From a virus: a stretch of 29,144 nt of DNA. The translations under genes were made by a program, and so were the position numbers. Positions 1,894 to 19,458 of this stretch are shown here, piece by piece; position 1 is the stretch's first letter; each line of letters starts with the position of its first letter. The stretch is from positions 1-29,144 of IMG/VR virus record IMGVR_UViG_3300009169_000074; one strand, given 5' to 3'. Under the pieces are notes generated by a model, which was not told the DNA's origin, did no database searches, and was given only the letters and a program-made list of their open reading frames with translations.

Positions 1894-4800
1894 TTAAGGA
1901 TTAAAAATTGATACATGCATGCCAAGAAAATCTACAAACAGATCAGAACCTGCAAACGGATCAATAACTTGTGCACTAGACTGGCCGCCAGAAGATACTT
2001 GGTTTATAATTGTATTTGTTTGAGTAGTGGAGGCTTTATCTATTGCTCCTGGCATTTTCTCTACACCAGCTGCAGTTTTATTTGCTACAGATATTTTATC
2101 TGCTTCAATCTGAGCAGCATTAACTCCTTTTTGTGTTTCTAGGTTTTGAATTTGGGCGCTCGCTGGTGACGTTCCAGGCAAATTCATAAGAGGACTTGTA
2201 CCTGGAACTGAAACAGCTCCAGCACCAGGAACTATAAACGGATTAGCAGCTTTAGTTGTAGAATTTTTAGGCAAGTCATCAATATACTTCTGGGTAAGAG
2301 ACTTCCACATGAATCCTTTGCCTGCGCTGTAAGATTTTACCGCAAGTTCATTTGTAAAAGGATTAATTTCTGTTCTTTCAGCATGAGTATCTCCGTATTC
2401 AAATCCTTTATCGCCAGGACTTCTTCTAAATGCTATTGCAGTACCAGGCCCAGCGGCTTTTAATGCTTCTAGAGTTAATGGAACTTGAGCGCCTGCGCCA
2501 AAACTTTGCATAATTTTATCTGGGATTCCTACACCAGCATTATTCCAAGGCAGAAGTTTATTTTCTGGCACGCCTTTACTAATCATAGCTGAATTCAGCT
2601 CTTTTGTTACTGCATCTCCGCAATTCTGAAAGGTTTGTAAAACAGATTGAGCTATGGGCTGAACATTTCCTCCAAGAGCGCCAAATATATCATAAGCATT
2701 CTTTGCATACTTTAAACGTTCTCCCATATTAGCGCCACCGGATCTTTCAAAAGTAGCATCCCATACTTTTGTCGCAGATTCTACAGATCCTGTTTGCATC
2801 ATTTTGCCCCAGTCGCCGCGCTTTTTAGCCTCATATACTAAATATTCTAATTGTGTCTGTCTGTCATTAAAATTTTTACCTTGTGCTTCTGCCCAAGCTA
2901 CTCCTGCAGGATATCTTTCTTTTACGTCCCATTGAGCAATTCCTTTATGCGTTCCCTTTTCATTAACAGCATATGGATTTAATTTAGATTCTTGCATTAA
3001 ATTACCAACAATCCCTGCAGCCTGTTCTTTTGTTGCTCCTTGAGACATTAAGAATTGCAAAGCTGCATGCTGCTCTGGAATAGAAGAACCTGTGCCAGTT
3101 TTTAAACTTTTTGCCATTTCTGTATTATAGTTAAATGGATTTACTCCTGGAGTATTTAAAGCATTAACAGCATTTTTTACTCCATTAACAAGCCAATTCC
3201 ATAAATCATGTATCCATGTAGAAATGTCATCCCAAAGACTTCCTAACCAGCTACCAGATCCAAAGTATTTTTCTGTTCTTTTAGTATCTAATTTAGCCAT
3301 ATCCTGAGTTTGAACCATATTTGCTTTAACCATAGCTTCATACATGGCATTTTCAGCACTTCCTGCTGAAGGAGAATCGCCAGCTTTAATATCTTTTTCA
3401 ATCATACCACCAACATTTTTACCAATCCATCCACCAATAAACCCTCCAATCATCTCTCCTGCAAAAATACCCGCCGCTACACCAGCAGGACCTCCAACTA
3501 TCCCAAGAGTGCCGCCGATAGCTGCACCAGCAGCCTGGCCAGTTAAAGATCCTCCTACTGCTCCTATAGCTTCTCCTGCACTACCTCCTTGAAGTGCAGT
3601 TAACGCACCAGATAATCCAGCTGCGCCGCCTCTAGTAGTTAATGCTAATTTACCGAGTTTACCTATACTGCCAAGGACTTTGCCGCCGCCCTTCCTTAAT
3701 GCATCAATTCCAAAATAACTTCCTACTAGAGTTAGTACATCAGTAAATCCTAGTCCGCCATCATCTGCTGCAGCTGCACCAGGCTGAGCTCCAAAAGTTC
3801 CTGAAGTATTTCCAACAAAAGCTCTAATTCTAGATTTTATTTTCTTTTTAGTTTCTTCATTACGTAGTTTTTTTGCCGTAGATTCTTTAGCTTCTTTAAC
3901 AGCAGCTTTTCTTAATCTTTTTTCAGTTTTTATTAACTTCTCTTCTTCTTTAATAGAATTCCATTTAAATATGAAAAATCTTTTTAAAGATCCTAGAAAA
4001 CCAAATATTTTATCTTTAAGAGAGGTGTTACCTTTAGAGAAAACTTCAGCAAGTTTAGCCATGCCATCTTTAACTTTACTTGCATACTTTGAAATAATAC
4101 CACCTTTAAATACATTAGAAAAACTAGTAAAGTTTTTCGTAAGTTTACTGCCAACCCAGGATGAAAAAATCTTTAAATTAGAGATTGCGTGAAAAGTGCC
4201 TTTAGCTAAACTCCATACAGCCCTAAATAAAGGCTTAAATAAAAATTTCCAGAATTTGCCACTAAGAATCATTCGCAACGGGCTAGTAACAAGTTTTGCT
4301 GTTTTCTCGCTTACTCCTGCTTTAACTAAAAGAAATCTAGCTCCAAATTTGATTAGGGCGTATTTAACCCACCAACCAATAGTCTTTTTAACCCACCCAA
4401 ACACACTTTTTGCAGAATCCCAAACAGCAGCCAACTGAGGACCTAAAATTTCTCTAAAATCTGATTTTACTGCTTCTATAAGACTTTCAAACTTCTCTTT
4501 CATAAAGTCTACAGCTTTAGCGAACACTTTAATAATAGGCTTTTTTCTAAGATCAAAAAAGTCTTTCATAGACTCTTTAGTTTTTTGAACTATTTTTGAT
4601 TGGGCCCTAGAATATAATTTGTACCCACCATATGCTATTCCAGCAACGGCACTTGCTACAATTAGGGCCTTCACACCTCTTAAGAATCCTTGATTCTGCT
4701 TTAATTGTTCTTTAAGATATGTTTTTTGGGTCTGTGCTAAAGTACTATGAAATTTAGGTAGAAGGCCTTTGCTAGATATAACAATAGGAGCAGACCCTCT

Positions 4801-4896
4801 GGCAAGTCTTACATTTACGGCTTCAGAAGCCTTATTTGAGACTTTTACAGGAACTGCTGTCATATCTCTATTTTTTAATACATCTGTTATAGGCAT
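1894..4896 (-). CDS. Tape measure protein with tail-lysozyme and C-terminal Cys/His domain
   Basis: 1000 residues, the longest gene in the window. Layout: basic N-terminus; a hydrophobic segment at about 74-95; long amphipathic and coiled-coil helices to about 360; a glycine-zipper block at about 420-500 rich in GxxxG (for example GGFIGGWIGKNVGG); a phage tail lysozyme-type domain at about 608-742; a second domain at about 755-875; and a Pro/Ala-rich tail. The lysozyme call rests on QAAGIVGNLMQESKLNPYAV, where E636 in MQES is the likely catalytic acid, followed by GIAQWD. The last domain has C759 in NCGDAV and H838 in GDTHAE, reminiscent of NlpC/P60 or CHAP peptidases (inference). The protein would set tail length, insert into the membrane on ejection and open the cell wall. 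An SD (AGGAGA) and a late promoter box lie just upstream. It sits where T4 has gene 29. Confidence 0.85.
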   Translation of the reverse strand: MPITDVLKNRDMTAVPVKVSNKASEAVNVRLARGSAPIVISSKGLLPKFHSTLAQTQKTYLKEQLKQNQGFLRGVKALIVASAVAGIAYGGYKLYSRAQSKIVQKTKESMKDFFDLRKKPIIKVFAKAVDFMKEKFESLIEAVKSDFREILGPQLAAVWDSAKSVFGWVKKTIGWWVKYALIKFGARFLLVKAGVSEKTAKLVTSPLRMILSGKFWKFLFKPLFRAVWSLAKGTFHAISNLKIFSSWVGSKLTKNFTSFSNVFKGGIISKYASKVKDGMAKLAEVFSKGNTSLKDKIFGFLGSLKRFFIFKWNSIKEEEKLIKTEKRLRKAAVKEAKESTAKKLRNEETKKKIKSRIRAFVGNTSGTFGAQPGAAAADDGGLGFTDVLTLVGSYFGIDALRKGGGKVLGSIGKLGKLALTTRGGAAGLSGALTALQGGSAGEAIGAVGGSLTGQAAGAAIGGTLGIVGGPAGVAAGIFAGEMIGGFIGGWIGKNVGGMIEKDIKAGDSPSAGSAENAMYEAMVKANMVQTQDMAKLDTKRTEKYFGSGSWLGSLWDDISTWIHDLWNWLVNGVKNAVNALNTPGVNPFNYNTEMAKSLKTGTGSSIPEQHAALQFLMSQGATKEQAAGIVGNLMQESKLNPYAVNEKGTHKGIAQWDVKERYPAGVAWAEAQGKNFNDRQTQLEYLVYEAKKRGDWGKMMQTGSVESATKVWDATFERSGGANMGERLKYAKNAYDIFGALGGNVQPIAQSVLQTFQNCGDAVTKELNSAMISKGVPENKLLPWNNAGVGIPDKIMQSFGAGAQVPLTLEALKAAGPGTAIAFRRSPGDKGFEYGDTHAERTEINPFTNELAVKSYSAGKGFMWKSLTQKYIDDLPKNSTTKAANPFIVPGAGAVSVPGTSPLMNLPGTSPASAQIQNLETQKGVNAAQIEADKISVANKTAAGVEKMPGAIDKASTTQTNTIINQVSSGGQSSAQVIDPFAGSDLFVDFLGMHVSIFNP

Positions 4897-4926
4897 TTGC
4901 TGGTGTTCTCCTAAAAAATAAAAACA

Positions 4927-4963
4927 GGTCTTAAGAAGTATTTATACTACTCTCCTTAAGACC
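4927..4963 (-). terminator. Rho-independent terminator before the tape measure gene
   Basis: Perfect 9-bp arms GGTCTTAAG (4927-4935) and CTTAAGACC (4955-4963) enclose a 19-base loop. Read on the minus strand the stem is followed by TGTTTTTATTTTTTAG, a good U-tract. It would end transcripts coming from the tube/gp26 genes. The loop itself is a nested palindrome (AGTATTTATACT, 4937-4948) that contains a TATAAATA box. Confidence 0.7.
4939..4946 (-). promoter_or_regulatory. Late promoter TATAAATA inside the terminator loop
   Basis: TATAAATA on the minus strand, identical to the T4 late promoter core read by the gp55 sigma factor. It lies 43 bases before the tape measure ATG. Expected initiation about six bases downstream falls inside the descending arm of the hairpin, so transcripts starting here would not contain the full terminator stem. 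Confidence 0.55.
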
Positions 4964-4999
4964 CGCAGATCCATTCGCATAAAAGTGAAGTGGAGGAAC

Positions 5000-5205
5000 T
5001 TATTTTGTCTGTTTTATGTTGTGTTGACTTTGAACTTCTTCCTTTAATTGTTTAATAATTAAGTTTAAGTATGCTTCTCTCTCAAAATCAGAAATAAGAG
5101 AGCTTTCTAATAATCCTATGTTGGCGTATTTACTGAGATAATACTGCTCTTCTACAAGACTTTCTGCAGTTACACCTTCAAGTATTATCTGCTTTAGAAC
5201 AAAAA
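5000..5205 (-). CDS. gp26 -1 frameshift extension (no start codon of its own)
   Basis: A 66-codon frame in the -1 frame relative to the gp26-like gene. It reads VLKQIILEGVTAESLVEEQY and ends NIKQTK with TAA at 5000-5002. Its composition is protein-like (leucine- and glutamate-rich helices), but upstream in this frame there is no ATG, GTG or TTG before a TGA. It joins gp26 exactly at a T TTT TTG heptamer. The predicted fusion is gp26 through residue 241, then these 66 residues. By analogy with lambda G/GT it would be the rarer long form of a tail assembly chaperone acting on the adjacent tape measure. Initiation at AUA or at an unrecognised site is the alternative. Confidence 0.6.
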
Positions 5206-5922
5206 ATTGTCCAAAGGCACCTCATTTTCGATAGAATCTTTACATCCTTCGCACTTCATCTTGTATTTAAAATCAAGGCCAAAATTAAGATTATTAAACC
5301 AGTCTCTTATCTTTTCATACAGACCTTCAGGAAGTATATTAACAAAATTAAACGAATCTTCAGCTGAAGGGGCATATTCTCCTTCAGGAGTTACGATCTT
5401 TTTGATGCAAATTGCGTGAGACCATAAAGCTTGATCAATCATTCTTTGTTGATATTCTAGCTCTTTGTCTACTTTTTCTTGAGCCTGTTTTTGAATTCCT
5501 CTAGTAAGAATACTTAATTCTACAGAAATATTGTCATCAAGTTTTACTGCAGTTTCAATAGACTTAAGCTTTTTTGTAGACAGCTTAGACAAATCTATTG
5601 TTTGCATGGTCTGTGAATTGCATTTTGAGCATGTATATAAAAATTTATAGATGTTGCCTTTAGTTCTACGTCTAATTGCTACAAGTAAATAAAATCTATC
5701 TTCTAGGTATAAATCATCAATATTAAAGCTCTCGTCAACAACACATCCTATAATCAGATCATCTAGCGCATCTTCGGAATCCTCGTCAGTAGCACCATAA
5801 GCTAAAAGCTTTTTTAGTTGAGATGTCGTAAATGGGCGAATTTTAACTTTTTGCCCTGAACCTGGTAAAGTTTCAACAAATTCATAACTATTTAAATACT
5901 TAATAACATTTTCTAAACTCAC
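5194..5922 (-). CDS. Baseplate hub assembly protein / tail chaperone, gp26-like
   Basis: 242 residues from a GTG start; the SD GGAG lies inside the last codons of the upstream endonuclease gene. It resembles the T4 gp26 family (T4 base plate protein). Visible features are an N-terminal FVETLPGSGQKVKIRPFT strand region, then TTSQLKKLL, and two CxxC knuckles, C98/C101 (YTCSKC) and C224/C227 (KCEGC), which together could bind one zinc. In T4, gp26 acts in hub assembly just before the tape measure. Position directly upstream of the tape measure also matches the chaperone slot of other long-tailed phages. The last codons are AAT TTT TTG TTC TAA, with a slippery run immediately before the stop. Confidence 0.75.
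   Translation of the reverse strand: MSLENVIKYLNSYEFVETLPGSGQKVKIRPFTTSQLKKLLAYGATDEDSEDALDDLIIGCVVDESFNIDDLYLEDRFYLLVAIRRRTKGNIYKFLYTCSKCNSQTMQTIDLSKLSTKKLKSIETAVKLDDNISVELSILTRGIQKQAQEKVDKELEYQQRMIDQALWSHAICIKKIVTPEGEYAPSAEDSFNFVNILPEGLYEKIRDWFNNLNFGLDFKYKMKCEGCKDSIENEVPLDNFLF
5200..5206 (-). promoter_or_regulatory. Predicted -1 ribosomal frameshift site T TTT TTG
   Basis: In the gp26 reading frame the heptamer is split T-TTT-TTG, the X-XXY-YYZ form used for -1 slippage. The SD-like GAGGTG (codons GAG GTG) lies 11 bases upstream, close to the roughly 10-base spacing of the stimulator in E. coli dnaX. The stop TAA is one codon downstream. I saw no convincing 3' stem-loop by eye. Confidence 0.6.
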
Positions 5923-5923
5923 T

Positions 5924-7579
5924 TTATTTTCTCCATTTATATACTAAATTTCCACAGTCCCAGATTCTATTAAATCCATGGTCCTGCATGTTTTGCCATT
6001 CTGTCTTAGTACTGTTAAAATTCTCTAATAGGGAACTTAACTTATGCTTCTGGTATTTAACTCTATGTTCTCTGTGACCTTGTACTATATACCAATAATT
6101 TGGTCCAGATACATGATCTAATTCAAATCCTAGAGTTTCATACATCTTACCTGAAAACCATCTTCTATCTGCGTAGGATACTACTTCTTCTTCAGGAGAA
6201 TACTCCTTAACGTAATGTTTAAACAGCCTATCAGCTCCACCTACAACTGAAGTATAGATCTTATTGCAGAACCTGAGCATTTCTGTCTTTGGAGATTCTC
6301 CAGTAATCTTTCTTTTGCCGAAGGTCATTATCGATACTAGCCCTTCTTCGTAAAATAGCCCTAGGCTTGTAGAACTTACACAAGTTCCCTGGATATGATT
6401 CTCTTCAAGGAACTTATCTTTAGTTTTACAATCAACCTCTTTAATAGAGCATTTTCTTGCATAAATTTTATTCTCTATCTTATTAAACTTGTTAAGCAAG
6501 ATAGATTTAACAATCTCTTGCTTGTAAAGCCACTCATCTTCAAAAACATGAATAAGTTCTATTCCTTTAGATTTACATTCTTCAGTCTTATTAAGATGAT
6601 ATTTAGGGTCTGTTCCTCTTAATTCTGAGTGGTAGTATATCCCATTAAATTCTATGGCTAAATTATCTTCTGGAATATAGATATCTAACTGCCTTGGTGA
6701 TATTACTTTCCTAGACCCATTAACTGCATTAACGTATTCTGATACAAAAGAGTATACTTCTTGTTCTGCGTTAGACGTTCCATTACCAGAGCATTTACCG
6801 CACCTTAGGTCTCTCCACCAATTACATAATTGAGTAGCATTTAAATGGCCTTTATCACATACAAATTCAATATCCTTAATAAACTCTGCAGGTTCTGTTA
6901 ATAAAGTACAATTATGTTCCTGCATACTTTTTATTAATCTAGGCCAAAGACTTTCAGCTCTATTAACTTTATTTCTTTCTTTGGTCTTTGATATATGTTC
7001 AGAACTTTTTCTGTAGTTATCTACTCCATATTTCTCTAAACAAGTTTGCTTTCTTTTCTCTTGAATCTCTTTAGACCTAAAATGATGAGGTTCTCCATAC
7101 TTCTCTAAACACGTATTCTTAAACTTTTCTTGAGCAATACTGGAAGCGAAAGGATATGTATTTCCGTACTTCTCTAAACAAGTTTCTTTAGCTTTTTGCT
7201 TTACTATTTCAGTTCTTTGTGGTATACTTTCTCCATACTTCTCTAAACAAGTTTGCCTGTACTTTTGTAATGTATCTTCATGTTTTATAGAACATTTATT
7301 AGAACAGAATTCCTGATACCCATATTGAAATCCTTTAAATGTAGTTTTCTTAGTCTTGCATGTTTTACATAAAGGAGCTTCAAAGATTCCATTAAAAACG
7401 TGGTATAATCTTTGATTAAAAGTAGGATTCTCTAAGAATTCTGTTCTTTTTACAATTTCTGTAAATACCTTAGGAAAATTCTCTAAAGTCCACAAGCCTT
7501 GATGCCTACTTCTATACACATTAAGGCACCTTCCATTAGACCTCAAGAGATTTTCTTCTATAAAACTTTTCAAGTCCAT
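5924..7579 (-). CDS. Free-standing homing endonuclease, Vsr-like (PD-(D/E)XK-related), with zinc fingers
   Basis: 551 residues. N-terminal zinc finger C71/C74...C92/C96 (CKTCKTK, FCSNKC); four copies of TCLEKYG at residues 110, 133, 156 and 179, exactly 23 residues apart; a second Cys cluster C241, C252, C260, C263. A nuclease core follows: LDIYIPEDNLAIEFNGIYYH (D299, E310, H317) and LIHVFEDEW, as in phage endonucleases with a very-short-patch-repair fold (the I-Bth0305I type; family knowledge). The C-terminal third (ADRRWFSGKMYETLG onward) is a separate DNA-recognition-like domain. It would nick or cut cognate sites and spread its own gene. It lies between the tube and gp26-like genes, has only a poor SD, and ends two bases before the gp26 start. 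A C-terminal paralogue fragment is at 19195-19458. Confidence 0.75.
   Translation of the reverse strand: MDLKSFIEENLLRSNGRCLNVYRSRHQGLWTLENFPKVFTEIVKRTEFLENPTFNQRLYHVFNGIFEAPLCKTCKTKKTTFKGFQYGYQEFCSNKCSIKHEDTLQKYRQTCLEKYGESIPQRTEIVKQKAKETCLEKYGNTYPFASSIAQEKFKNTCLEKYGEPHHFRSKEIQEKRKQTCLEKYGVDNYRKSSEHISKTKERNKVNRAESLWPRLIKSMQEHNCTLLTEPAEFIKDIEFVCDKGHLNATQLCNWWRDLRCGKCSGNGTSNAEQEVYSFVSEYVNAVNGSRKVISPRQLDIYIPEDNLAIEFNGIYYHSELRGTDPKYHLNKTEECKSKGIELIHVFEDEWLYKQEIVKSILLNKFNKIENKIYARKCSIKEVDCKTKDKFLEENHIQGTCVSSTSLGLFYEEGLVSIMTFGKRKITGESPKTEMLRFCNKIYTSVVGGADRLFKHYVKEYSPEEEVVSYADRRWFSGKMYETLGFELDHVSGPNYWYIVQGHREHRVKYQKHKLSSLLENFNSTKTEWQNMQDHGFNRIWDCGNLVYKWRK
5934..5941 (-). promoter_or_regulatory. Late-promoter-like TATAAATG upstream of gp26-like gene
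   Basis: TATAAATG on the minus strand, one base off the late consensus, embedded in the YKW codons at the end of the endonuclease gene and 12 bases before the GTG start of gp26. Initiation here would leave almost no leader, so it may be chance. Confidence 0.25.
7025..7252 (-). repeat. Four 69-base spaced repeats encoding TCLEKYG
   Basis: Near-identical 21-base units at 7232-7252, 7163-7183, 7094-7114 and 7025-7045, each encoding TCLEKYG, with a constant 69-base period inside the homing endonuclease gene. The linkers between units differ in sequence but keep length, so each unit is probably one helical DNA-contact module. Confidence 0.85.
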
Positions 7580-19194: not shown

Positions 19195-19458
19195 ATGCAT
19201 GCAGAGTTAGGCAAGATGTATGAGTCTTTAGGATTTGAACTAGATCATATATCTGGACCTAATTACTGGTATATTATTCAGGGTCGCAGGGAACACCTGG
19301 TTAAATATCAGAAGCATAAGTTAAATTGCCTATTAGAAAATTTTGATCCTTCCAAGACCGAATGGCAAAATATGCAGGACCATGGTTACGATAGAATTTG
19401 GGACTGCGGAAATTTAGTATATAGGTTTACAAAAAGAAGGCAAAAAGACGGTGCATAA
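19195..19458 (+). pseudogene. Homing endonuclease remnant (C-terminal domain only)
   Basis: 87 residues, MHAELGKMYESLGFELDHIS through YRFTKRRQKDGA. From GKMY to NLVY it matches residues 477-547 of the endonuclease at 5924-7579 at 59 of 71 positions (about 83%), for example GPNYWYI and EWQNMQDHG. Everything before the GKMY region is missing: no zinc finger, no TCLEKYG repeats, no nuclease core. At the junction GCAGAG-TTAGGCAAG looks like a collapsed form of the ADRRWFSGK codons. There is no SD. It is most simply the 3' scar of a lost endonuclease gene. Its stop lies inside the hairpin that ends the capsid operon. Confidence 0.75.

Follow-up and report, generated by a model that had tools for sequence, protein, structure and literature searches.

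A predicted -1 frameshift joining gp26-like and gp51-like frames ahead of the tape measure gene of a T4-like virus

Two overlapping frames on the minus strand

The window, by which we mean the whole stretch of DNA that was analysed, is a virus record of 29,144 bases. The features of the locus are the following, with the evidence for each in parentheses:

5194..5922, minus strand: open reading frame of a gp26-like tail assembly chaperone, zero-frame product of 242 amino acids, GTG start (PF12322, phrog_150)
5218..5223, minus strand: SD-like GAGGTG, a probable stimulator, with an 11-nt spacer to the heptamer (sequence; codon bias of relatives)
5200..5206, minus strand: slippery heptamer T TTT TTG, in the -1 register (sequence; kept in 121 of 125 distinct loci)
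5194..5196, minus strand: zero-frame TAA stop of gp26 (sequence)
5000..5203, minus strand: -1 frame from the slip site, putative gp51 domain, no start codon (phrog_634, -1 frames of relatives)
5000..5922, minus strand: predicted trans-frame fusion gp26-gp51, 307 amino acids (end-to-end alignment with T4 gp51)
1894..4896, minus strand: tape measure / tail lysozyme gene, directly downstream (PF18013, tape-measure PHROGs)

The 3' end of gene 26 (g26) reads AAT TTT TTG TTC TAA, with TTC at 5199-5197. After a slip, the -1 frame presents 66 open codons, from 5200 to 5003, followed by a TAA at 5002-5000; ATG, GTG and TTG are all absent from the open -1 segment 5221-5000, and the +1 frame at the same site shuts after 5 codons. 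The tape measure gene starts at 4896, about 100 nt past the end of the -1 frame at 5000, so that two overlapping frames stand directly upstream of it, in the layout of genes G and GT of phage lambda. A preliminary description of this DNA had reported the heptamer and its register, the GAGGTG 11 nt upstream, the start-less frame of 66 codons, and the position of the fused gene just before the tape measure: each of these was recovered on the minus strand.

A stable hairpin (4905-4975, minus strand, -21 kcal/mol, z -3.1), followed by a terminator-like T run, lies between gp51 and the tape measure gene. On its loop side, at 4946-4939, is a TATAAATA that resembles a T4 late promoter. Minus-strand TATAAATA motifs occur at 1799, 4939, 10122, 22021, 23853 and 26909, several of them just 5' of structural ORFs; the window has 10 such motifs for 5.7 expected, which is not significant by count alone. 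On the other side of the locus, a DUF7487 protein, homing-endonuclease-like in appearance, is encoded at 5924-7579 (minus strand), between the tube gene and g26. An ORF at 19195-19458 (plus strand) repeats its C-terminal 75 residues with 80% identity, and is possibly a decayed copy.

The zero-frame product matches the family PF12322 (T4_baseplate, E = 5e-25, 88.8 bits for a curated cut-off of 24.5) and phrog_150 (baseplate hub, E = 4e-27). Its AlphaFold2 model has a mean pLDDT of 92; the best PDB match, a weak one (E = 0.43, TM 0.23/0.41), is the HK97 tail assembly chaperone 2ob9, and a PDB sequence search with gp26 found no relative.

The relatives of the -1 frame can be reached by profile searches, not by single-sequence searches: no match was found by tblastn of the 73-aa frame against phages or by a single-sequence scan of viral contigs, and a scan of genome contigs found no relatives. 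By contrast, the frame of the window matches phrog_634 (baseplate hub assembly catalyst, gp51) with E = 4e-4, and so do 19 of the 21 -1 frames of its clade at E <= 0.01, the best with 9e-10. Compared with the -1 frame of one relative, L001, it has 52% identity over 58 residues (E = 5e-22), and profile comparison with the gp51 frames of cyanophages yields a probability of 97.9% (E = 6e-13). Direct comparison of the profiles of window-clade -1 frames and T4 gp51 fails (probability 0.2%), and the link to T4 thus goes through the cyanophage frames. The homology starts at the slip site; AlphaFold2 predicts a stretch of 67 residues as entirely helical, with a mean pLDDT of 89, and Foldseek returned nothing for this domain. 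As judged from these profiles, the 66-codon frame, which the preliminary description took for an unknown extension, is a gp51 domain. It is short and has no start codon, as would be the case for a decayed frame or one open by chance, but we give next to no credence to such an origin, given the identity with L001, the 19 matches in the clade, and the fact that the -1 frame is open in all heptamer loci except for contig-end cuts and two short cases.

Conservation of the predicted slip site

The window was compared with its relatives in a set of 125 distinct loci, window included. These loci are kin by descent, so that codon counts are not independent, and 80 of them come from one search centred on P-HM2. 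An in-register TTTTTTN is found at most 2 codons from the g26 stop in 121 of the 125, and all 80 cyanophage-type IMG/VR loci have T TTT TTC in frame, one codon ahead of the stop. Beyond the stop, the -1 frame of heptamer loci has 54-67 open codons, apart from exceptions that include two loci running off their contigs and two short cases, while the +1 frame has a median of 5.

The codons themselves are constrained. In each of the 121 loci, the middle codon is TTT, a codon that accounts for about 68% of Phe codons elsewhere, and T is the third base of the codon before it; pooled codon usage for the same residues predicts a heptamer in only about 42% of the cases. The third codon is TTC, following the invariant TTT, in 106 of 121 slip sites, whereas pairs of Phe codons elsewhere in the same genes read TTTTTC in only 13 of 111. 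Most heptamers end in C, and UUUUUUG of the window is the sole one ending in G. Taken together, heptamer and open -1 frame are, on this comparative evidence, well beyond chance.

Four loci were counted as lacking the in-register heptamer. K351 (L015) has no heptamer and has TAATG; GXN1 (L006, near 3248) and L134 (near the g26 stop), two divergent relatives likewise devoid of the heptamer, have a gp51-like frame in +1 that opens with an ATG of its own. The fourth, L132, has a TGA at about codon 202 of its gp26 homologue, where relatives have Trp, and TTTTTTA farther on, which suggests that TGA is read as Trp in this genome, or else a sequencing error. The L132 gene runs on past the TGA to AGT TTT TTT TTA TAG. 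GXN1 also has a CCC C shortly ahead of the stop.

The slip site of the window combines a heptamer of type X XXY YYZ with an SD-like element at a spacing of 11 nt, within the range of about 10-14 nt of the dnaX type. Among the 121 distinct relatives, 78 have such an element upstream, either GGAGG/GAGG at a distance of 10 nt or AAGG at 9 nt. Of the 84 Glu-Gly pairs at this site, 60 have GAG as the Glu codon, for 28% elsewhere; with GAA as the Glu codon, the Gly that follows is GGG in 13 of 24 pairs, for 7% elsewhere, and this exchange of GAG and GGG is significant (Fisher p = 1.5e-5). Since this bias restores the purine block, the block itself appears to be under selection. The RNA downstream has a weak structure, with z of about -1.7 to -2.1 in the window and 0.16 in L001: the structure of the window is not common to its relatives, conserved downstream structure is not supported, and Rfam has no match.

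Another way of obtaining the same extended protein is transcriptional slippage, in which RNA polymerase inserts a single extra U when it copies the T run, and the resulting mRNA reads from gp26 into gp51. The close relatives of the window have runs of 8-10 T, for example AAT TTT TTT TTC, and the SD-like element is missing in 13 of the 24 loci with runs of at least 8, compared with 7 of the 97 loci with shorter runs, an association that largely follows clade. However, in the window and in 93 other distinct loci the run is exactly six T long, and the base after it is usually C or G. On runs as short as this, slippage is usually poor. Furthermore, slippage by the polymerase would need neither a conserved register of the heptamer nor an SD-like block upstream, and we consider it very unlikely.

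Probable ribosomal frameshifting and other possible routes to gp51

The remaining alternative is a free gp51, made by termination and reinitiation or from a non-canonical start just past the g26 stop. Starts near the stop are indeed common: 90 of the 121 loci have an ATG or GTG at most 30 nt away, and many relatives read TAATG, TGATG, or have an ATG 5-14 nt past the stop. Free gp51 may thus be additionally made in those 90 loci. Starts of this kind are absent in the other 31, window included, and the frame of the window is devoid of ATG, GTG and TTG. In addition, L001 has TAATG but its nearest relatives have TAATTA; conservation thus does not lie in the start. The preliminary description had held that homologues with a normal start codon would count against a frameshift: such starts do exist, but the heptamer is kept in all these loci, with or without a start. 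In T4, moreover, the gp51 domain is present as a fusion. A free gp51 as the explanation of the conserved arrangement seems to us extremely unlikely.

We conclude that programmed -1 ribosomal frameshifting very probably produces a minor predicted gp26-gp51 fusion, following the strategy of lambda G/GT. Comparative evidence strongly supports what the preliminary description had proposed on this point, namely a -1 frameshift, a stimulator like that of dnaX, and the analogy with lambda. Most ribosomes would translate gp26 and terminate at the TAA, 5196-5194; a minority would pause near the end of g26, aided by pairing of GAGGTG with 16S rRNA. The tRNAs in the P site (tRNA-Phe, on UUU) and in the A site (tRNA-Leu, on UUG) would then slip back by one base onto UUU UUU, and translation of 66 more codons would yield the 307-aa fusion. 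By analogy with lambda gpG and gpGT, both forms would act as chaperones: coating of the tape measure protein would fall to the gp26 part, and recruitment of components of the tail or of the baseplate hub to the gp51 part.

There is a broader conjecture, which we regard as possible but doubtful: within this one family of chaperone genes, the routes to the extended form would be exchangeable. Under this conjecture, the window and the cyanophages may use a U6 heptamer with an SD-like stimulator; the closest relatives of the window may use a run of U8-U10, often SD-less, with possible transcriptional slippage; an added coupled start codon may be a further route; and T-even phages may have duplicated the gene and lost the slip site.

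The predicted frameshift bears on annotation. No join is marked at the g26/gp51 junction in any annotated record that was inspected. The gp51 of P-HM2 is deposited as only 31 aa (L004 3250-3342), and the annotation of S-WAM2 has a gap where the gp51 frame lies (L005 3215-3392). Ah1 and PX29, which we take to be Aeh1-like, both have the heptamer, and the open -1 frame of Ah1 has no annotated gp51. With no join marked, and gp51 reduced to 31 aa or missing, as in S-WAM2 and Ah1, the chaperone is probably misannotated in many genomes. In 2010, Sullivan et al. (PMC3037559) described cyanophage and marine vibriophage gp51 as lacking about the first 200 residues of T4 gp51, spoke of a "reduced" cyanophage gp51, and listed gp51 as absent from Aeh1; a frameshift was not given as the reason for the shortened gp51. 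The frames described here offer such a reason for the "truncated" gp51: the missing part would be gp26, joined by the predicted -1 shift. Nearly all marine T4-like phages examined have the same arrangement, and the cultured cyanophages make the prediction directly testable.

Comparison with known systems

The preliminary description knew of no frameshift in a T4-like chaperone of the gp26 type. This appears to be wrong. Vladimirov, Gautam and Davidson (2022, pmid 34826709) identified which proteins are the tail assembly chaperones in the T4-like group; of the papers that cite them, one reports poly-T slippery sequences in T4-like TAC-N genes (PMC12846349) and another separate short and long genes in some T4-like phages (PMC10885494). 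A frameshift of this type has thus already been proposed for T4-like chaperones, and is not new here.

The chaperones gpG and gpGT of lambda are also related by a -1 frameshift; their likeness to the pair described here is one of arrangement, and the window differs by its slip site, TTTTTTG with an SD-like element, and by belonging to a contractile T4-like phage. With E. coli dnaX, it shares a slippery heptamer and an SD-like stimulator about 10 nt upstream, but the run is of A in dnaX and of U here, and no conserved downstream stem-loop was found here. In the chaperone genes of Vandenendeviridae and Andersonviridae, TAC-N likewise ends in a T-rich -1 slippery site, from which a -1 frame is open to the tape measure, but the motif is GTTTTT and the phages belong to another group (PMC12846349). 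Cyanophages, vibriophages and further T4-like phages have pairs formed by gp26 and a short "gp51", which agree with the window in heptamer, position, frame and gp51 domain, but the two are annotated as separate small genes, or the second is omitted, and many have an extra start near the stop.

In T4, gp26 and gp51 are encoded by two separate, divergently oriented genes without heptamer. The zero-frame product of the window matches T4 gp26, and the predicted fusion matches T4 gp51 end to end: T4 gp51 belongs to PF12322/phrog_150 and matches phrog_634 at its C-terminus, and in a joint alignment it spans the whole predicted fusion, while T4 gp26 ends near the slip point. The T-even gp26 genes, which serve as a negative control, read GAG TTC TTT or GAG TTT TTT and have no heptamer. 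The -1 frame of the window is not a self-contained gp51 of the T-even type: it lacks a start codon, and for its gp26-like domain it depends on g26. From this correspondence, two products that would come from a single gene in other T4-like phages appear to have a gene each in T-even phages. According to a review of 2016 (PMC5009743), the G-T frameshift is widely conserved among long-tailed phages, "except T4", and the comparison shows how T4 could be a derived exception to this conservation.
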